Assembly: GCA_016936815.1 (NCBI GenBank)
Contig: JAFGXD010000064.1
Span: 1-35,609, forward strand
Source: Bacteroidales bacterium
GTDB lineage: Bacteria > Bacteroidota > Bacteroidia > Bacteroidales > GWF2-38-335
DNA length: 35,609 bases
Direction of reading: 5' to 3'
The position numbers were made by a program, and so were the translations under genes. Numbering within the stretch: position 1 is the stretch's first letter; each line of letters begins with the position of its first letter. Under the pieces are notes generated by a model that ran no database searches, had not been told where the DNA came from, and worked only from the letters and a program-made list of their open reading frames with translations. Of the stretch, positions 13,017 through 27,926 are shown piece after piece.

Positions 13017-13475
13017 TTAATAGCCTCTTTTTCTACCCGAAAAACTGCTGATTTCTATTTTCATTACACATACATCTTCAACTGCCGGAAGATTATAGGA
13101 AAACTCTTTGCCTGTGTAATGCTTCATAATAATGTTAAGTGCTTCAATTTTTTCTTCGTTTGTCTCTACAAAATGTAGTTTTCCCTCTGCTATTACAGAA
13201 CGAAATTTCATGCTGTAGCTGCATGCAACGCCTTCATTTACAAAATGTAACACAGAATCTTTTTCAAACGAAATACATACATTATTGTTTTTTCTAAGTA
13301 TATCAGATTTTCTGCCTCCTTTTCCTGAATGTATGTAAATGGTTTGTTCTTTATAACCAAAATTAAATGGCAAAACGTATGGTTTATCTCCATCAACCAT
13401 TGCTATGTGGCATACATTAACAGATTTTATTATTGCTTCAATTTCAGGCTGAAAATCGATTTTAAAATGTTTCAT
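13017..13475 (-). CDS. pyridoxamine 5'-phosphate oxidase-fold flavin-binding protein
   Basis: The product is a 152-residue protein of the PNPOx-like split-barrel superfamily, of the kind that includes NimA-like reductases. It shows NVCHIAMVDGDKPYVLPFNFGY, a strand pair ending in YIHSG, the G-x-KSD turn (GGRKSDILRKNNNVCISF) typical of the FMN-phosphate site, and a C-terminal MKIEISSFSGRKR. Such proteins usually bind FMN or a related flavin; the substrate is unknown. It is the last gene of the six-gene operon and starts 1 base after the radical SAM stop, so it is likely to be translated from the same mRNA. A general detoxifying reductase is the alternative to a dedicated operon role. Confidence 0.82.
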   Translation of the reverse strand: MKHFKIDFQPEIEAIIKSVNVCHIAMVDGDKPYVLPFNFGYKEQTIYIHSGKGGRKSDILRKNNNVCISFEKDSVLHFVNEGVACSYSMKFRSVIAEGKLHFVETNEEKIEALNIIMKHYTGKEFSYNLPAVEDVCVMKIEISSFSGRKRGY

Positions 13476-13476
13476 C

Positions 13477-14517
13477 TTATTTGGTTTTGTTATTATTTGC
13501 TATTTCGTCCAATATGGTTAAAATGGGATCAACACTTTCCAAACCAAGTCCCATTTGTTCCGATGCTGCTCTACAACCGCCTAAACATTTATTGAAAATA
13601 TTACAATTACTGCAAAAATCCGGAACTATTTCTGTCCATTTTTTTAGATAATCGTTCTCTAAAATTTCTTCAATCTTGTTTTCATAAATATTTCCAATAA
13701 TAATGGGACTATGATTGCAAATTCGCATATTGCCTTCTATATCAAGAGTTAATGGTTTATTTAGTATATTTGAACTGCATGATGTAAAACCTATTTGAGG
13801 AAAATCGGTGGGGTTTAACAGACAAAGTGGAGTGCAAACATTGGATGTTAATCTTACTCCAAATTCCTTGGCCGCCAAATTTGCCTCAGAAAAAGCAAAA
13901 TTAATTTCTTCTTTGCTCATTACCAACTCTTTAATTTGTGTAATTCCTGCCCCTCCAATATTGTAACGATTTAACATTATTCGGTTTACTCCAATACTTT
14001 GAATAAATCTGATGGTCTCTTTTATTGATTTGTAATTGTGCTTTGTTATTACAATAACTGCAACAACATTGCCGCCCAAATCTAAAATTTGCTTTGTTTT
14101 TTCAACAGAATTTGTCCAAGACCCATTAACATTTGCCATAAAGTCGTGTTCTTCACTAATATAAGAGTGAATGGGTAACTCGAAAAGTCCTACGCCCATT
14201 TTAATCAACATAAAAAAATCGTCTCTAGACCCCGCATTTCCATTGGTAATTATCGAAACTTGCTTTTTTCGTAGTCTTGCAAATAGAACTAATTCCAAAA
14301 ACCTTTCTGCTAAAAGAGGTTCTCCGCCGGTAAATGTTATTTGATCTACTTGAACCTTGCTAAATAGCCTTTTTAAAGTCTTTCTTGCTTTTTTATAGGA
14401 GTCAAACTTGTACTTTTCGCCAATTGGAGCCTTCCAAATATTATAGCAATATCTGCAATTTAAATTACAAACCGATGTTGTTTCAAAAATAATAAATGGT
14501 AGTTCCGGTTTAGGCAT
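13477..14517 (-). CDS. radical SAM/SPASM-type peptide or protein modification enzyme
   Basis: The product is a 346-residue radical SAM enzyme. The cluster motif is at C17, C21 and C24 (CNLNCRYC), followed by the SAM-binding FTGGEPLL at about 62-69 and IITNGN at about 89-94. The C-terminal part holds eight further cysteines at about 228, 232, 247, 267, 302, 305, 311 and 315, ending in CSNCNIFNKCLGGC. This is a SPASM-like arrangement that could hold two auxiliary 4Fe-4S clusters. SPASM enzymes commonly modify ribosomal peptides or protein side chains. It starts 3 bases after the stop of the second paralogous membrane protein and ends 1 base before the PNPOx gene. From memory it resembles the enzyme of the Bacteroidota 'rSAM/lipoprotein' systems (TIGR04133). 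That is unverified. Confidence 0.88.
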   Translation of the reverse strand: MPKPELPFIIFETTSVCNLNCRYCYNIWKAPIGEKYKFDSYKKARKTLKRLFSKVQVDQITFTGGEPLLAERFLELVLFARLRKKQVSIITNGNAGSRDDFFMLIKMGVGLFELPIHSYISEEHDFMANVNGSWTNSVEKTKQILDLGGNVVAVIVITKHNYKSIKETIRFIQSIGVNRIMLNRYNIGGAGITQIKELVMSKEEINFAFSEANLAAKEFGVRLTSNVCTPLCLLNPTDFPQIGFTSCSSNILNKPLTLDIEGNMRICNHSPIIIGNIYENKIEEILENDYLKKWTEIVPDFCSNCNIFNKCLGGCRAASEQMGLGLESVDPILTILDEIANNNKTK

Positions 14518-14520
14518 TTC

Positions 14521-15060
14521 TTAATATTTTGTTGAATCAGAAATATTTAGTACAAATCGTCTGTTGTAATTTTCCAGATTTTCATATCGGCCGGAATAAA
14601 TCCTTAAATCGTATTGTCCCTCGGGAATATCAGATGGAATTGGAATTAAAAAGTCTTCGTAATTGCTGTTAAAATCTCCATCGGAAGGAATTAAATTGCC
14701 CTCAAACTTTATTGTATCAAGTTCCAAAATCTTATAATCGTATTGAGATAAAGTGCTGTTTCTTATAAAGCCCTTAACAACAGTATCTTCACTAATGCAA
14801 ATATTTACTGTGTCTCCGTAAACATCATTTATTTGAATTTCGTTATTTTGTTCAGGCTCAGGCATATCGTAACATGTAGCAACGCAACCTTGGTGACTTA
14901 CTATTGTGCTTGTAAGTGCAAGAATTGCTGCTCCTGTTCGTATTTTTCTTTTGGTTAGCTTTGCTGAATTGGGGTAAAGGAATAAAAGAACAGTTACAAT
15001 TAGAAAAATGCATGTAAGTGCCAAAATTACTGCAGGTGCTAAAAAATTATTTTTATCCAT
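14521..15060 (-). CDS. membrane-anchored protein with CY-x-M-P motif, paralogue B; candidate radical SAM substrate
   Basis: The product is 179 residues and clearly paralogous to the upstream gene product: MDKxNxLxPA at the N-terminus, a shared KxxRKIxxGAAIL, and a similar C-terminal domain. TM1 covers about 8-29. A basic loop (KLTKRKIR) follows, then a second hydrophobic stretch (about 43-56) that looks like an internal signal peptide. Directly after it come C59 and the C63-Y64-D-M-P67 motif. The loop charge predicts that the motif and the following ~110 residues face the periplasm. That part looks like a small beta domain (GQYDLRIYSG near the end). It contains three Asp-Thr-Val/Ile sites and a terminal Asp-Ser-Thr. 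No known function is recognised. The position just before the radical SAM gene suggests it is a substrate. Confidence 0.75.
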   Translation of the reverse strand: MDKNNFLAPAVILALTCIFLIVTVLLFLYPNSAKLTKRKIRTGAAILALTSTIVSHQGCVATCYDMPEPEQNNEIQINDVYGDTVNICISEDTVVKGFIRNSTLSQYDYKILELDTIKFEGNLIPSDGDFNSNYEDFLIPIPSDIPEGQYDLRIYSGRYENLENYNRRFVLNISDSTKY

Positions 15061-15083
15061 ATTTTATGATGCTAATGTTTTTT

Positions 15084-15632
15084 TTAAAAGTAACAAGTAT
15101 TATTAATGAATTTCTTGTTTTCAATTATGGTTATGTTTTGTTTTAAAATAAAAACAGGGCTTTTCGAACCATTTTTTGTTTCTGTTATTGTAATTGAATA
15201 ATCACCCACCTCAATTTTTTTTATTGGAACAAATATACTGGTGTCTCTAATAATTAATTTTCCTGATTGTTGAATTTTTTCATTTTCATCCACAATTGAA
15301 AAATTATATTCCGATTCTTTGTTAAAATCATAAATCCTTCCTTTTATTGTATCTTTATGCTGATAAAACAACTGACCGCCTACAAATTGATTCTCGTAAA
15401 TTTTTATTTTTGAGTTTTTTACCGTTTTGGGAACCGAATAACACATTGGTTCTTGAGCACTTAAACCGGTATTTAAAAAACTGCTTAAACTAAGAATTGC
15501 AGCTCCAAGTTTAATTTTTCTACTAATAAGTTTCTTGTTTTTTGGTTTTAAAAAAAGCAGAAATGTAATTACAACAAAAGAAACTGTTAAGGCTATTATC
15601 AGGGCGGGGGAGAGTATGTTTTGTTTATCCAT
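15084..15632 (-). CDS. membrane-anchored protein with CY-x-V-P motif, paralogue A; candidate radical SAM substrate
   Basis: The product is 182 residues. It has the same plan as paralogue B: TM1 at about 7-28, a basic loop (KPKNKKLISRKIK), and a second hydrophobic segment GAAILSLSSFLNTGLSAQ that on its own would read as a signal peptide with an A-Q-like cleavage site. Immediately after come C64-Y65-S-V-P68 and a ~110-residue beta-rich domain with KDTIKGRIYDF, IFVPI and VGDYSITI segments that match paralogue B. Only two cysteines lie outside the membrane: C64 and C180. The latter sits in the extreme C-terminus TCYF, a second Cys-Tyr pair. The gene starts 2 bases after the GT2 stop and is followed by paralogue B after a 23-base gap. 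Function unknown. Confidence 0.75.
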   Translation of the reverse strand: MDKQNILSPALIIALTVSFVVITFLLFLKPKNKKLISRKIKLGAAILSLSSFLNTGLSAQEPMCYSVPKTVKNSKIKIYENQFVGGQLFYQHKDTIKGRIYDFNKESEYNFSIVDENEKIQQSGKLIIRDTSIFVPIKKIEVGDYSITITETKNGSKSPVFILKQNITIIENKKFINNTCYF

Positions 15633-22133: not shown

Positions 22134-25100
22134 CTATCGTTTTTGTATTACGATTTTCTTAGTAAACAAATCATCCGGGGTTTTAATCTGGATTTTGTAA
22201 ATGCCATCCGAAACATTTTTAAGGGCAATGTTTTCATTAATGGTATTAATGTTTGAATAATCTTTTGTCCATATTTCCTGTCCCAAAGTATTAATAATAC
22301 TTATATTAACATCTTTTGAATTTTCCATTCCCATTTTCAAGGTAAATTCTCCGTTGGAAGGGTTTGGATAGACTTCAAGTTCTGAAATATTTATAGGTAG
22401 TTCTGTGGTAACAGGGAAATCGATTAATACAGAGTCTGTTGCAGTACATCCGTTAACATCGGTTACATCTACATAATACCAGCCGTAAGCAGAAGCAGGG
22501 AAAATAGCAGTTGTTCCTGTAATACTATAATCTGCGTTATGCCAGAAATAATTGAAGAATCCTCCAACAGTTGTTAGACCGTAAGGAAGAGAAGCTGATG
22601 CAACGTGAATAGTATCGCCGCCTGCAATTTGAACCGACAATTCGTAATGTTCAATGAAACCTACAACAGAATCGTTTAAGTAATTTGCATCTCCGTCGTA
22701 AATAATATTAATTACAAAATTGTAAGTTGTAAGAGCAGACAAATCTATGGTTTCGCTAAACACGAAGCCAATGAATTCTCCCGGATTAACATCAGTAGCA
22801 ACAATAATTGTGTCCTCAATATGATATCCTGAATCGAAATCTGCAATTGCAATAATGGTATCATTAGCAGGAATTATTACTTCTCCGGTATTGTGAATTT
22901 CGCAGTAAAGCAATTCTGAATCTCCCAAGCCGCAAGTAGTAGTATTAGCATCAGGAAACTGAATTCCAAGATCGGCAGCATAAGGAGTTAAATCAATCAT
23001 AAAATTGAAAACACCTCCAACATAAGCATCATCCCAAAGAATCAAATATGTAGAATCTGAACTAACTGTTAATGTTACAGTTGATTGCAGGCTACATCCA
23101 TCATCGTTTTCAGCAATATGAGCCATTGTAGCAACAGAATCACAATCTCCATAAACATAAAGCCATGTGTCAATACTTGCCAACCCACAAGAATAAATTG
23201 TAGCCACACCTGATTGAGGAGGATTGAAATAGAACCACTGTTCGTAATCGGAATTATCGGCAGCATTCAGACCAACAAAAGCCTCCAGGCCGTAATCGCA
23301 TGAAGAACCTTCCGGAGCAGCATCTTGAGTAACAGTAACAATCCAATCCTGAGTTGTTACAGCATCTTCTGCGGTTACTAAATATGTAACAGGTAGAGTA
23401 AAATCGTTTGAAGTAAGTCCTGAAACTTGAGGAACTGCAGCTATTGTAGCATTTGCACCATAAGAAAGGGTGAAATTTGCAATTAGGTTTGTAATATCAG
23501 CCATCCAGTTAACATTAATGTTTACAGTATGATTTATAGGATCGATAACAGCAGGGGCGGTTTGTTCTGCAAAAGAATATGTAATAATATCTGTTTCTGA
23601 AAGTACAGGTGAAACAGTTACGTTTACTGTCCAGTCTTCGCTAGTACCATCTTCGGCAAAAATTGTGTAAGTTACTGTTAAAGAAAAATCATTTGTAGTT
23701 ACACCGGAGATTTGACCCACACTCGATATTTCAGCATAAGCACAAGAAGTAAGAGTGAAAGAAGCAACTAAATTGCTAATATCGGTACCAAAACCTACAG
23801 AAATATCAACATTATTTGAACCATAATCTATTGTTGCAGGAGCTGTTTGTGTTGGGAAGCTAAAGCTTACAAAATCAGCTTCAGAGCTTTCAAGTCCAAA
23901 AACTAGTTCAACAAATTGCAAGCTTCCATCATCAAGGCTAGGGTAGTTGTCAATTAAATGAAGAATCCAAACTCCATTTGGATCTGAACCATCGTTGAAA
24001 TCTGCAAAATCGCCATCAGGAATATATGAACCAACAAAAGGAGCAATTCCAGAACTAATTGAAGTTGGAGCACACATAATGAAATTAGTAAAATGGCTAC
24101 AGGTTCCATCAATTATTCCATAATCATAATTTCCTCCACCATTTCCAACAGATAAATCAATCATTACCCCTGAAGGAGATTCAAGATACATTTCCACATC
24201 AGCATCAAAATCGTGTTGTATAATAACATTAACCTCTCTTATCATAACATCAGTTCCAAGTTGTGTTCCTGAAGCAGCATCAACCAGAATTGGAATTGTT
24301 AAGTTGTTTGGGCCAAATGCCATGTTAACACCACAAGCAGTTGGATTAGTTAAAGGAGTCATAAGAGTTGTAAACTGGAAAGGACCAGTCCATTCTGATG
24401 TTTCGGAAGAACAATCTGCTCTTAGGTAAAAATCATAAGTTGTTTCACCTGTAAGTCCTGTGAATGTAAAAGGATTAGATGTAGTATTTTCAATACTAGG
24501 TGTTCCTGTTGGAGTAAAAGGGCTAATTCCGTATTCAATATCCCATTCGGTTGCATCAAAGCCATTCCATGCAATTGTAGCTTCGGTATCTGTAATTCCA
24601 TAGCTTGTAACATCAATAGGAGAAGGACAGTTTGCAGGAGTTGTTATTGTTAGAGGTCCAATAAAAAGGCCAACATCACCAACGCCGCATGAATCCTGAA
24701 CGTAAAAATCGTAAGCAGTTTCGGCGGAAAGTCCGGATATTGTAGCAGGGTTTGAAACGTCTTCAAGAAGAGTTCCTGTTCCGGGAGTAAATCCTGAAGG
24801 GCCATATTCAATATTCCAATTTGCAGAACCACCTGTTGTCCATGAAAGTTGAGCTTCATCGGCATCGTAATAATCAACAGCGAAATTAGTTGGTTCAAAG
24901 CAGGTTGGTATTTTTCTTACCCAGAAATTATCAATAAAGAAATCATTATCAGCATCGGAAATAGTTGATTCTGTGTAGAATGCAAATTTCACAACTCCTG
25001 TGTAAGCAGAAAGGTCGTAAACATGATGCTCTCCTGTGTTTGAAATGGTTGAAGCGCTGGTGAAAACTTCTAAAGCATCAGCCAAATTCCAGGTAGCTCC

Positions 25101-27926
25101 TGCGTCGGTTGAAATAGCAACAACAATTTTGTCGTCTGTTCCCAAAGTTGTAGCAGCAGTTCCGGCATAATTTGTAAGAGCCATGTCGAATTCCAATTGG
25201 TATCCAATTGAACCATCACCCAAATCAATATTTGGAGAAATAATCCATTCATAATGATTTGTTGACCAAACATTTACTCTTGCTGCTCCAGTAGATCCAA
25301 TATTTGCAAAACCATCTACTCCCCAGTTAGAAATAGTGGAAGTAAAAGTTGTTGGGTCTGCAATTTGGCCTTTTGCTTCGCTCCAGCAAACAGGTAAATA
25401 TGTGTCGAAATTTTGAAGGTAAGAAGGAATAAAATCTTCACATTCGGTAGTGAAAGTAAAAGGTCCAACCCATGCGCTGGAGTCGGTAGAACAATAGTTT
25501 CTAATATAAACACTATAGGTTGTTGCAGGAAGAAGACCTGAAAGCGTGTAAGGGCTAACTCCAACATTGTAAATTGTAGGAATTCCTGTTGGAGTAAAAG
25601 GATCAATACCATATTCAAGGTCGAATGCAGTACCGTCAAAGCCTGTCCAACTTAAATCTACTGAAGAGGAAGTGATATTTTCCCCGGTAAAAGAAATTGG
25701 AGCAGGGCAGAATTCAGTCGTAGTAATAGTAAGTGGACCAATCCAAAGACTTACATCACCCACTGCGCAAGAATCTTGCACGTAGAAATCGTAAGCAGTT
25801 TCGGCAGAAAGACCGGTTATTGTTGCCGGGTTTGAAACGTCTAGAAGAAGAGTTCCTGTTCCGGGAGTAAATCCTGAAGGACCATATTCAATATTCCAGT
25901 TTGCCGCACCACCTGTTGTCCATGAAACAGTAGCTTCATCTGAATCGTAATAATCAACTGAAAATGCAGAAGGTTCCATACATGTAGGAACTTGTCGCAC
26001 CCAGAAATTATCTATAAAGAAATCGTTATCCACATCGGAAACGGTAGATTCTCCATAGAAACCGAATTTCACAACTCCTGTATAACCTGATAAGTTATAA
26101 ACTCTGTGTTCTCCGGTATTTGAAATAGTTGATGAATTGTCCCAAACCTCCAAAGCATCGGCCAAATTCCAAGTAAGCCCATTGTCTGTTGAAATAACAA
26201 CTGCAATTTTGTCATCAGTACCCAAAGTGGCACTTCCTGTTCCGGCATAAACAGTGTAAGCCATATCAAATTCCAATTGGTATTCAATAGAACCATCACC
26301 TAAGTCAATTGATGGGGAAATCATCCATTCAAAACGATTTGTTGAATAAATATTTATTCTTGCTGCACCTGTAGATCCAACATTTCCAAATCCATCAGCA
26401 ATCCAATAAGAAGTAGATTCTGTGAAGCTTGTTGGATTTGCTAGTTGACCTCTGGCTTTGGACCAGCATTCGGGAAGAAAACTAGCATAATCTTGAAAAT
26501 AGGATGGAACAAAATCAGCACAAGGAGTAGTAAAGTTAATAGGTCCAACCCAAGCACTTTGCTCAGCTCCACAATCGTTTCTAATGTAAACTGAATAATT
26601 AGTTACAGGATTTAAACCGGTAATATTGTAAGTACTTGGAGCTACATCTTCAATAGTTGGGGTTCCTGTTGGAGTAAAAGGACTTGCACCATATTCAATA
26701 TCGAATGCAGTTCCATCGAAACCTGTCCAAGTAATATCTGCAGAAACACCTGTAATATTAGATGCAGCAACATTTATTGGAGTGGGACAAGCATCTGTAG
26801 TAGTTATAGTTACAGGTCCAACCCAAACACTTTCGTCGCCAACGCCGCAATAATCTTGTACATAAAAATCGTATGTTGTTTCAGAAACAAGACCTGAAAT
26901 AGTTACAGGGTTTGAAACATCGGCAACATAAGTACCTGTTCCAATAGCAAAACCGGTTGGACCGTATTCAAGATTCCATGTACTTGCGCCTCCACCGGTC
27001 CATGATAATTGCACCTCATCTGAATCATAGTAGTTTGCAGTAAAATCAGTAGGAGCAGGGCAGGTTGGAAGAGTTGTAAAATCGAAAGGACCAATCCACA
27101 GACTTTCATATCCACTACAATCAGATTGAATATATATTTGATAATCGGTATCGGCCGATAATCCGGTTAAAGTGTAAGGATTATCTGTAACAGCAATTGT
27201 TGTTCCGGAACCTTGAGCAAAACCTGCAGGGCCGTATTCAATATTCCAATTAGTTTCTGAACCACCTGCAGTCCATGAAAATTCTGCCTGATAAGTATCA
27301 ATATTAGAAACAATAAAATTTGAAGGTTCCCAGCAAACTAATGGTCCGAAGAATCTAATGTTGCTGTATTCCATTGAAATCCCACTATAACCAGGAGGAG
27401 TATTAAAGTCTGAATAACCATAAGCGGTTCTATTTACAGTTCCTGTAGTTTTGTAATTTTTATAAATTGTTGAACTGTAGGCGCCTTCATCACCCCAAAT
27501 AATTTCAACAATTAGATTATCGGTTCCATTATAGGCAAAATCGTTAATATCAATAATTGCCCAACCGGGGGTTGAACCCAGAGTGTAAGACGGACTAAAG
27601 AATACCTGTGTGGAACCGGTCATGTCGGCATAAGCACCTGTAGTTAATTCTGTTGCAGTAGTGTACTTAAAATTGATTGTTAAGTTTGTCAAGACTTCAT
27701 AACCTGAAGCTGCTATGGCTTGTAGGTTATAACCAATTTTGTCGATTGTAAAAGCACCACCAATTTCCGATTGGAAGTACAAAGTTTGCGATTTTCCGTT
27801 TTCGTAGAAGGTGTAAAACGGAAAATAATCGGATCCGGTACTTGTACCGGTGCCAATTTCAACTACCTGACCATTAACAAAAAAGCCGGGTAGCATGAAA
27901 AGCAATAAGTAAATTAATTTTCTCAT
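22134..27926 (-). CDS. giant secreted multidomain protein with fibronectin III repeats and T9SS sorting domain
   Basis: The product is 1,930 residues with signal peptide MRKLIYLLLFMLPGFFVNGQ. Rough layout: an N-terminal beta domain (21-195); FnIII domain 1 (199-289); FnIII 2-3 (290-469); a jelly-roll 'choice-of-anchor'/MAM-like domain (470-649); FnIII 4-5 (650-829); a second such domain (830-1009); FnIII 6-7 (1010-1189); a proprotein-convertase P-like domain (1190-1338); two similar ~95-residue domains with NLxAxFTL and TxNDFxLxVTY patterns (about 1340-1522); a PPC-like domain (about 1525-1640); a CARDB-like domain (about 1645-1760); a short Ig-like module; and a type A T9SS sorting domain (about 1841-1930) with VYPNPSNGEF and DGIYKIQI. 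No catalytic motif is seen. It is probably a cell-surface adhesin or matrix protein exported by T9SS. Confidence 0.9.
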   Translation of the reverse strand: MRKLIYLLLFMLPGFFVNGQVVEIGTGTSTGSDYFPFYTFYENGKSQTLYFQSEIGGAFTIDKIGYNLQAIAASGYEVLTNLTINFKYTTATELTTGAYADMTGSTQVFFSPSYTLGSTPGWAIIDINDFAYNGTDNLIVEIIWGDEGAYSSTIYKNYKTTGTVNRTAYGYSDFNTPPGYSGISMEYSNIRFFGPLVCWEPSNFIVSNIDTYQAEFSWTAGGSETNWNIEYGPAGFAQGSGTTIAVTDNPYTLTGLSADTDYQIYIQSDCSGYESLWIGPFDFTTLPTCPAPTDFTANYYDSDEVQLSWTGGGASTWNLEYGPTGFAIGTGTYVADVSNPVTISGLVSETTYDFYVQDYCGVGDESVWVGPVTITTTDACPTPINVAASNITGVSADITWTGFDGTAFDIEYGASPFTPTGTPTIEDVAPSTYNITGLNPVTNYSVYIRNDCGAEQSAWVGPINFTTPCADFVPSYFQDYASFLPECWSKARGQLANPTSFTESTSYWIADGFGNVGSTGAARINIYSTNRFEWMISPSIDLGDGSIEYQLEFDMAYTVYAGTGSATLGTDDKIAVVISTDNGLTWNLADALEVWDNSSTISNTGEHRVYNLSGYTGVVKFGFYGESTVSDVDNDFFIDNFWVRQVPTCMEPSAFSVDYYDSDEATVSWTTGGAANWNIEYGPSGFTPGTGTLLLDVSNPATITGLSAETAYDFYVQDSCAVGDVSLWIGPLTITTTEFCPAPISFTGENITSSSVDLSWTGFDGTAFDLEYGIDPFTPTGIPTIYNVGVSPYTLSGLLPATTYSVYIRNYCSTDSSAWVGPFTFTTECEDFIPSYLQNFDTYLPVCWSEAKGQIADPTTFTSTISNWGVDGFANIGSTGAARVNVWSTNHYEWIISPNIDLGDGSIGYQLEFDMALTNYAGTAATTLGTDDKIVVAISTDAGATWNLADALEVFTSASTISNTGEHHVYDLSAYTGVVKFAFYTESTISDADNDFFIDNFWVRKIPTCFEPTNFAVDYYDADEAQLSWTTGGSANWNIEYGPSGFTPGTGTLLEDVSNPATISGLSAETAYDFYVQDSCGVGDVGLFIGPLTITTPANCPSPIDVTSYGITDTEATIAWNGFDATEWDIEYGISPFTPTGTPSIENTTSNPFTFTGLTGETTYDFYLRADCSSETSEWTGPFQFTTLMTPLTNPTACGVNMAFGPNNLTIPILVDAASGTQLGTDVMIREVNVIIQHDFDADVEMYLESPSGVMIDLSVGNGGGNYDYGIIDGTCSHFTNFIMCAPTSISSGIAPFVGSYIPDGDFADFNDGSDPNGVWILHLIDNYPSLDDGSLQFVELVFGLESSEADFVSFSFPTQTAPATIDYGSNNVDISVGFGTDISNLVASFTLTSCAYAEISSVGQISGVTTNDFSLTVTYTIFAEDGTSEDWTVNVTVSPVLSETDIITYSFAEQTAPAVIDPINHTVNINVNWMADITNLIANFTLSYGANATIAAVPQVSGLTSNDFTLPVTYLVTAEDAVTTQDWIVTVTQDAAPEGSSCDYGLEAFVGLNAADNSDYEQWFYFNPPQSGVATIYSCGLASIDTWLYVYGDCDSVATMAHIAENDDGCSLQSTVTLTVSSDSTYLILWDDAYVGGVFNFMIDLTPYAADLGIQFPDANTTTCGLGDSELLYCEIHNTGEVIIPANDTIIAIADFDSGYHIEDTIIVATDVNPGEFIGFVFSETIDLSALTTYNFVINIIYDGDANYLNDSVVGFIEHYELSVQIAGGDTIHVASASLPYGLTTVGGFFNYFWHNADYSITGTTAIFPASAYGWYYVDVTDVNGCTATDSVLIDFPVTTELPINISELEVYPNPSNGEFTLKMGMENSKDVNISIINTLGQEIWTKDYSNINTINENIALKNVSDGIYKIQIKTPDDLFTKKIVIQKR
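24361..27060 (-). repeat. 1,080-base tandem modules inside the giant gene (two and a half copies)
   Basis: Copies run 24361-25440, 25441-26520 and the half copy 26521-27060. Rows of sequence 1,080 bases apart line up without gaps. An example is the CCTGTTGGAGTAAAAGG stretch near 24500, 25580 and 26660. Each full module is 540 bases encoding two FnIII domains plus 540 bases encoding one anchor-like domain, so module borders fall on exact multiples of 180 codons. Copies differ by many substitutions, so the duplication is not recent. Confidence 0.9.

Follow-up and report, generated by a model that had tools for sequence, protein, structure and literature searches.

A candidate maturation cassette in Bacteroidales pairing exported Cys-Tyr proteins with a radical SAM/SPASM enzyme

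Twin proteins encoded beside a radical SAM gene

The window analysed here is a 35,609-nucleotide stretch of contig JAFGXD010000064.1 from a Bacteroidales bacterium. On its minus strand, genes for a TPR protein, a GT2 glycosyltransferase, the proteins P0001, P0002 and P0003, and a PNPOx-type protein follow one another with gaps of 1 to 23 bases, and three bases separate the stop codon of P0002 from the gene for P0003, a radical SAM/SPASM enzyme. The PNPOx-type flavoprotein gene (13017-13475), which begins one base past the enzyme gene, weakly resembles Nim nitroimidazole reductases (48.3 of 260 bits). Elsewhere in the window, positions 22134-27926 encode a protein of 1930 residues that has fibronectin-III repeats and, at its C terminus, a secretion sorting domain (PF18962).

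P0001 and P0002 align over 161 columns with 36% identity (E 3e-22). An initial annotation, made from the letters of the DNA, had described both as carrying a first membrane helix, a basic loop and a segment that by itself resembles a signal peptide, with a Cys-Tyr (CY) pair soon after it, and this twin layout is confirmed by the sequence and hydropathy of both ORFs (Table 1). Specifically, segment 1 is a strong membrane helix (Kyte-Doolittle 17-residue means of 2.9 in P0001 and 3.15 in P0002) and segment 2 is a weaker hydrophobic stretch (1.28 and 1.34, respectively). As judged by eye, a plausible cleavage site closes the second segment in each protein, GLSA↓QE in P0001 and a lipobox-like HQGC in P0002, and the Cys-Tyr pair lies no more than five residues past this site in both. 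The P0001 site fits the Q-rule for signal peptidase I sites of Bacteroidota, as given in the available part of PMC10653852. The TCYF end that had also been noticed in P0001 is real, and similar ends, TCYF and TCYY, recur in two of its relatives (loci L011 and L016).

No Pfam or NCBIfam family covers P0001 or P0002 (NCBIfam: 0 families at E ≤ 1), and their Pfam matches to DUF3199 and GpP-like (E 0.05-0.08) were dismissed as chance. In an AlphaFold model of P0002, built from 11 sequences (mean pLDDT 82.8), residues 7-28 and 33-54 are helical and a beta domain starts at residue 74, with strands between 74 and 174. The domain after the motif thus modelled appears to be a beta-sandwich with generic matches only, the best VIA match having a Z of 8.8 (2.9 Å over 90 residues) and Foldseek giving three matches below 1e-3. 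A beta-sandwich domain is predicted for P0001 by homology. A match between the P0002 model and galactose oxidase was given no weight, because it runs via the C-terminal beta domain of that enzyme (residues 544-639) and not via its Tyr-Cys site.

Table 1. Genes and sequence features of the cassette, with positions in the window
Feature	Position	Strand	Basis
P0001, paralogue A, predicted substrate with two CY sites, 182 aa	15084..15632	-	ORF and homologues
P0001 first hydrophobic helix, residues 7-28	15549..15614	-	hydropathy 2.9
P0001 basic loop, residues 29-41, 7 Lys/Arg, no acid	15510..15548	-	
P0001 second segment, residues 42-59, ending GLSA↓Q, putative signal peptidase I site of Q-rule type	15456..15509	-	sequence; A↓Q in relatives
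P0001 Cys64-Tyr65, first proposed site	15438..15443	-	sequence and homologues
P0001 Cys180-Tyr181 of the C-terminal TCYF, second proposed site	15090..15095	-	recurs in L011, L016
P0002, paralogue B, lipoprotein-type predicted substrate, 179 aa	14521..15060	-	ORF and model
P0002 first hydrophobic helix, residues 7-28	14977..15042	-	hydropathy 3.15; helix 7-28 in model
P0002 basic loop, residues 29-41, 5 Lys/Arg, no acid	14938..14976	-	
P0002 second segment, residues 42-58, lipoprotein-signal-like	14887..14937	-	hydropathy; helix 33-54 in model
P0002 Cys59, lipobox-type (SHQGC)	14884..14886	-	sequence; lipobox-type Cys in 48/59 family members
P0002 Cys63-Tyr64, proposed site	14869..14874	-	sequence and homologues
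P0003, radical SAM/SPASM enzyme, proposed maturase	13477..14517	-	PF04055, PF13186; orthologues; fold

The enzyme family and the genes that precede it

P0003 matches PF04055 (74.2 bits) and PF13186 (26 bits), both above their cut-offs. Three SAM-cluster Cys residues (CX3CX2C) and eight further Cys residues are invariant in 18 of 18 enzymes, a complement that would be enough for the SAM cluster and two auxiliary clusters. Because the SAM motif begins as early as residue 17, there is no space ahead of it for an N-terminal peptide-binding domain. The solved proteins nearest in sequence are SkfB (75.7 bits), PqqE (56.2 bits) and two viperin-like radical SAM chains (~50 bits). P0003 falls below the cut-off of every NCBIfam model among its best 25 of 92, and belongs neither to the SkfB family TIGR04403 (49.3 of 300 bits) nor to the PapB family NF047865 (55 of 340 bits), which places it below the sactipeptide and ranthipeptide cut-offs. 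The folds ranked highest for the P0003 model (mean pLDDT 88.9) are those of SkfB, SuiB and anSME, all of which modify peptides or proteins, and viperins appear from rank 8. Viperins act on nucleotides, and their place close behind the peptide modifiers counts against reading P0003 as a peptide maturase.

A scan of the genome collection with P0001 and P0002 alone gave no match, and homologues of these proteins occur in six of 99 related genomes. The enzymes adjoining those homologues were aligned and the collection was then scanned, which yielded at least 80 loci. Among the matches listed, P0003 orthologues with 40-64% identity are present in L015-L033, whose hosts are Bacteroidales MAGs, a Marinilabiliaceae bacterium, Paludibacter, Prevotellaceae and Alistipes MAGs, and two Clostridia MAGs. 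At E ≤ 1e-60 the enzyme is found in 22 of 393 genomes of the order, with the matches in two of them (G263 and G173) judged to be of another family, and a phylum-wide draw of 395 genomes gave three matches: the window's own genome, L157 (with a CY substrate upstream) and L158. The enzymes of G263 and G173 (L115 and L116; ~210 bits) and that of L158 have no CY neighbour and were dropped as members of other enzyme families. The L157 enzyme (L157:1474-2625, minus strand) has ~38 extra residues near its N terminus that resemble a repeat element inserted in frame.

The enzyme set comprises 32 distinct full-length versions including that of the window, of which two (L108 and L020) end at a contig edge, leaving 30 with upstream sequence. 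The gene adjacent upstream encodes an exported protein with a Cys-Tyr pair in 27 of these 30 loci. In 26 of them the gene was found by script and in L101 by eye, the script having chosen a farther gene there when the adjacent one encodes a protein with two CY pairs. By comparison, 84 other ORFs from 13 loci contain 18 CY in 29,530 residues, or roughly a 10% chance per 170-residue protein; against this background the binomial probability of the observed count is about 2e-24, which is a rough value as the loci are related and not independent. The earlier suggestion of a link between the Cys-Tyr motif and the radical SAM enzyme is borne out by this count and by the genome-level distribution given below.

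In L110, five consecutive genes of 75-81 residues directly precede the enzyme (L110:342-1501), and each product carries [TS]-Cys-His in place of Cys-Tyr; four of the five have a lipobox-type Cys, which in three is immediately followed by His. Two rumen Bacteroidales loci (L028 and L033) hold a full-length enzyme with no CY gene adjoining it, and their substrates may lie elsewhere or have been lost. Outside the set of 32 are L031 and L032 (frame break, with CY genes upstream in both), L034, L035, L113 and L114 (broken or cut) and L157. The radical SAM genes of L031 and L032, from two Clostridia MAGs (L031:873-1902 and L032:1666-2695), share a +1 frame break just before HGGEP; they are 85% identical over 1032 bases without gaps, and before and after the break alike most of their differences are at third codon positions. 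The break is possibly a site of programmed frameshifting. At L034:5875-6606, a substrate leader is fused in frame to the middle of the enzyme gene, with an apparent deletion of the Cys-Tyr part and the SAM-cluster motif.

Window-type substrates are present in 14 of the 393 order genomes, and each of these 14 is among the 22 enzyme-positive ones (hypergeometric probability 2e-20); at least four of the 14 supplied rows to the search profile. One of the 14, G070, has only a partial enzyme (L114:1175-1708, minus strand) that reads RINSHSP where others have RxCNHSP, so that one cluster ligand is seemingly lost. At E < 1e-4, a profile of the short substrates picks up substrates, whatever their format, in seven of 99 genomes. 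All seven belong to the eight enzyme-positive genomes below G099 (5e-10), and only G001 among them had given sequences to that profile. At E 0.01, 21 of the 99 genomes pass, and the 14 that do so only at 0.0015 or worse were counted as chance.

An all-against-all comparison of ORFs within ~6 kb at 20 loci reveals no third gene, beyond the enzyme and its substrates, that is shared by more than two loci, and four further pairs of ORFs are common to two loci each. The PNPOx, GT2 and TPR genes are packed against the cassette in the window, yet none lies near the enzyme in the other 19 loci compared, and they were rejected as candidate components.

Formats, leader and motif of the substrates

We gathered 59 substrates, partly by looking for CY. 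The overall enrichment (85 CY, including one in the L023 leader, where 2000 shuffles average 5.5 and never exceed 15) is therefore biased, and the enzyme-anchored count of 27 in 30 is the fairer test. Four formats can be distinguished. Substrates such as those in the window have two hydrophobic segments followed by a beta-sandwich domain, whereas those of another format have an N-terminal segment, mostly a lipobox, a linker and a TonB C-terminal domain (PF03544 in both proteins scanned, from L019 and L023). A third consists of short lipoproteins of ~70-150 residues that have one to three CY and little else in common after the lipobox, and that form tandem runs of six in L021 and seven in L024. 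The fourth, from Clostridia MAGs, comprises a signal, CY, a membrane helix and a Lys-rich tail. Apart from the leader and the Cys-[Tyr/His] pair, these substrates seem to be unrelated to one another.

A single enzyme can be accompanied by many substrates. In G001, a genome of the same genus, there is one enzyme-linked substrate, an array of eight on contig C13 (L218:3350-5817) and two short members on C27 (L219:967-1574), neither contig being that of the enzyme. Seven of the eight are short, one of them without an in-frame ATG, and the remaining member resembles P0001 and ends in TCYF. The flank of this array also holds TPR and GT2 counterparts, which we read as same-genus synteny. The window's own genome has one enzyme and, away from the window's contig, four further substrates, three of them short and in a row on C184 and the fourth on C169. 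Also on C169 (L003:1225-1767, minus strand) lies a disrupted third paralogue, whose frame contains a TAG and which lacks an ATG where one is expected.

A leader motif (a basic or aromatic residue, a hydrophobic residue, any two residues, Gly) is present in 52 of the 59 substrates. The two window proteins had been read as having a helix added in front of an ancestral secreted or lipid-anchored protein. As a peculiarity of these two this is not supported: at least 20 residues precede the leader motif in 47 of the 48 members that have both a Met start and the motif, the 48th reflecting a wrong start chosen by the script. Among these 47, the hydropathy of the preceding segment is 2 or more in 25, 1-2 in 11 and below 1 in 11. 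Thus, the N-terminal helix of the window pair is best seen as a membrane-inserted version of a leader element that most relatives appear to share. At least one member (L024:3892-4095) has no N-terminal segment before the leader motif.

By regular expression, a lipobox-type Cys is found in 48 of 59 substrates, although in a few of these calls the script took a later Cys than the lipobox read by eye. A Q-rule site is found in five, three more are Q-like by eye, and three Clostridia substrates fit neither pattern. The number of residues between lipobox and CY ranges from 3 to 76. This spread argues against the earlier proposal that the helix fixes the motif at the membrane face, and the recurrent cleavage sites suggest that the helix is removed.

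The motif had been drawn as CY-x-(V/M)-P, of which the Cys-Tyr part recurs and the remainder is too narrow: Pro is common at positions +2 to +7 from the CY Cys (64 of 85), but it shifts position and is sometimes absent. Thr, Met or Ser precedes the Cys in 70 of 85 cases. When the homologues were compared for free variation at the Cys, Tyr and Pro positions, Cys was present in every substrate read and Tyr was likewise fixed, with His replacing it throughout the single cassette L110, whereas Pro varied freely. Cys residues other than those of CY occur in the script-defined mature part of 20 of the 59 substrates.

Proposed maturation and comparison with known systems

We consider it likely that P0001, P0002 and P0003 form a two-component cassette, in which a radical SAM/SPASM maturase modifies the Cys-Tyr pair of its substrates in the cytoplasm before they are exported by the Sec system. 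Sequence comparisons show that the cassette is conserved, that its substrates were found only with the enzyme, and that one enzyme is accompanied by many substrates on the same and other contigs. The leader, composed of the N-terminal segment, the basic turn and the signal segment, would hold the precursor at the inner face of the membrane. There, cytoplasmic P0003, lacking a separate N-terminal peptide-binding domain, would modify the Cys of each Cys-Tyr, or the Cys together with its neighbour, and the Sec system would export the chain after modification. Signal peptidase II would cut before Cys59 of P0002 to yield a lipoprotein whose lipid lies four residues from the modified pair, and signal peptidase I would cut P0001 between A59 and Q60. 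Counting against this model are the two enzyme loci with no CY gene beside them (L028 and L033), the partial enzyme of G070 with its changed cluster Cys, and the 20 substrates with non-CY Cys residues in the mature part.

Since conservation extends to no third residue, a change confined to the pair itself is favoured, either a thioether from Cys to the neighbouring aromatic residue or an oxidised Cys side chain. Cys or Tyr had both been offered as the modified residue. Cys is the likelier of the two because the five-gene cassette carries Cys-His throughout.

Several other readings of the locus were weighed against this one. P0001 and P0002 could stay uncleaved, with helix 1 (N terminus out) and helix 2 (N terminus in) forming a hairpin that displays the Cys-Tyr pair and the beta domain at the periplasmic face, and with segment 2 not serving as a functional signal peptide, a picture much like that of the initial annotation. 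The strong hydrophobicity of helix 1, the weaker helix 2 and a basic loop that agrees with the positive-inside rule are consistent with such a hairpin, as are the two helical segments of the P0002 model. However, a lipobox-type Cys or a Q-rule-like site ends segment 2 in 56 of 59 substrates (three by eye), including both window proteins, and the first segment has a hydropathy below 2 in 22 of 47 members, which makes the hairpin unlikely, particularly as a rule for the family. It is distinctly unlikely that the cassette makes a small secreted natural product to which the beta-domain and TonB-type proteins are incidental relatives. The short lipoproteins with several CY in tandem do resemble precursor arrays, but no conserved peptidase, transporter or second tailoring enzyme is present in the ~6 kb around the enzyme at 20 loci, and the folded domains past the motif favour modification at the protein level.

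Another reading leaves the Cys-Tyr pair unmodified, serving metal binding or disulfides in the envelope, and gives the radical SAM enzyme a different product within the same pathway. Metals are commonly bound by Cys together with Tyr or His, which suits such a role, and the Cys residues of exported proteins often pair. Yet the substrates, otherwise unrelated, are found only with the enzyme and directly before it, and the single CY of many substrates suits neither a disulfide nor a chelate within one chain; we regard this reading as very improbable. A more ambitious version of the maturation model is that one radical SAM enzyme installs the same change, most simply a Cys-Tyr or Cys-His thioether, on membrane-anchored proteins of unrelated fold, that the product is a redox-active or metal-binding cofactor of the envelope and not a natural product, and that the export leader doubles as the recognition leader. 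Cross-links of this kind are familiar from the Tyr-Cys cofactor of galactose oxidase and the Cys-His of tyrosinase, but for the cassette this full version is rather unlikely.

If the two-component model is correct, the cassette offers a simple system, two genes and one dipeptide, for a possibly new Cys modification. The natural Tyr-to-His swap, the one to three sites per substrate and the unrelated protein formats that go with a single enzyme family open both the chemistry and the rules of the leader to direct tests.

A sister-like pair is TIGR04133/TIGR04134 of Bacteroidales, which likewise joins a radical SAM/SPASM enzyme and a lipoprotein in two genes. Three of four TIGR04134-type lipoproteins inspected have Tyr-Gly-[Thr/Ser]-Pro soon after the lipobox; in contrast to the window's substrates, none of the four has a Cys directly before the Tyr, although two have one two residues before it. 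The TIGR04133 enzyme is only 24% identical to that of the window. P0001 and P0002 have no match to TIGR04134 even at E 1 (curated cut-off 39.8 bits), and TIGR04133 (cut-off 425 bits) is absent from the best 25 of 92 families for P0003, the last of which scores 45.2 bits. The two systems share genomes above expectation (4 of 7 enzyme-positive genomes versus 10 of 80, p 0.004). In an Alistipes locus (L030:4996-8095), a TIGR04134-like lipoprotein (26.4 bits, below 39.8), a window-type substrate with its enzyme, and a TIGR04133 enzyme (581 bits, cut-off 425) stand in a row. The same architecture may help to explain the TIGR04133/TIGR04134 pair.

NF058595 ('invert_tail', lipo-invert) was considered as a lead for a helix placed before a signal, as the L030 substrate scores 20.5 of 37 bits, and was rejected because matches below the cut-off occur in 11 of 14 control genomes and matches above it in 0 of 60 relatives. 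The enzymes anSME, SkfB and SuiB share 14-18% identity with P0003. anSME, which converts Cys to formylglycine, modifies Cys in proteins, many of them exported, with a substrate motif that differs from that of the window.

Among the literature matches listed, which were compared by title and abstract opening with most subscription papers outside the scope, none describes this cassette. The main text of a survey of Bacteroidales RiPPs (PMC10352776) contains neither 'lipoprotein' nor 'signal peptide'. The lipoprotein-like proteins of graspetide systems, in the available part of PMC8939145, go with ATP-grasp loci and do not represent this system.

The layout seems to parallel closely that of the RiPP-lipoprotein hybrids and bufferins made by MNIO enzymes. 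In the hybrids, termed DAG-RiPPs (DybA/DybH and NedABC, with Bacteroidota examples), a lipoprotein signal is joined to a Cys-based core that is modified in the cytoplasm and then lipidated, and the same subfamily of enzymes also modifies proteins larger than 30 kDa and precursors of the signal peptidase I type, as described in the available part of PMC12636315. Their enzyme is an MNIO, whereas that of the window is a radical SAM protein, and their cores are CPACGMG, EGKCG and CxxxxC; neither 'radical SAM' nor 'rSAM' appears in the main text of that paper (PMC12636315). For bufferins and other Sec-signal MNIO substrates, the available part of PMC12452194 describes a Sec signal peptide that replaces the ordinary leader, precursors that are in some cases very long and a membrane-protein family that is also suspected of being modified. 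These systems differ in that the MNIO mostly acts with a partner protein, the Cys motifs are other ones and bufferins bind copper (PMC12452194, same part). No MNIO (DUF692) is present in the window cassette, where P0003 is a radical SAM enzyme and the neighbours scanned against Pfam are PNPOx, GT2, TPR and fibronectin-III proteins. On the proposed reading, the cassette would be a radical SAM counterpart of the lipidated RiPPs made by MNIO enzymes, and signal-peptide-led protein modification would reach from MNIO enzymes to the radical SAM superfamily.
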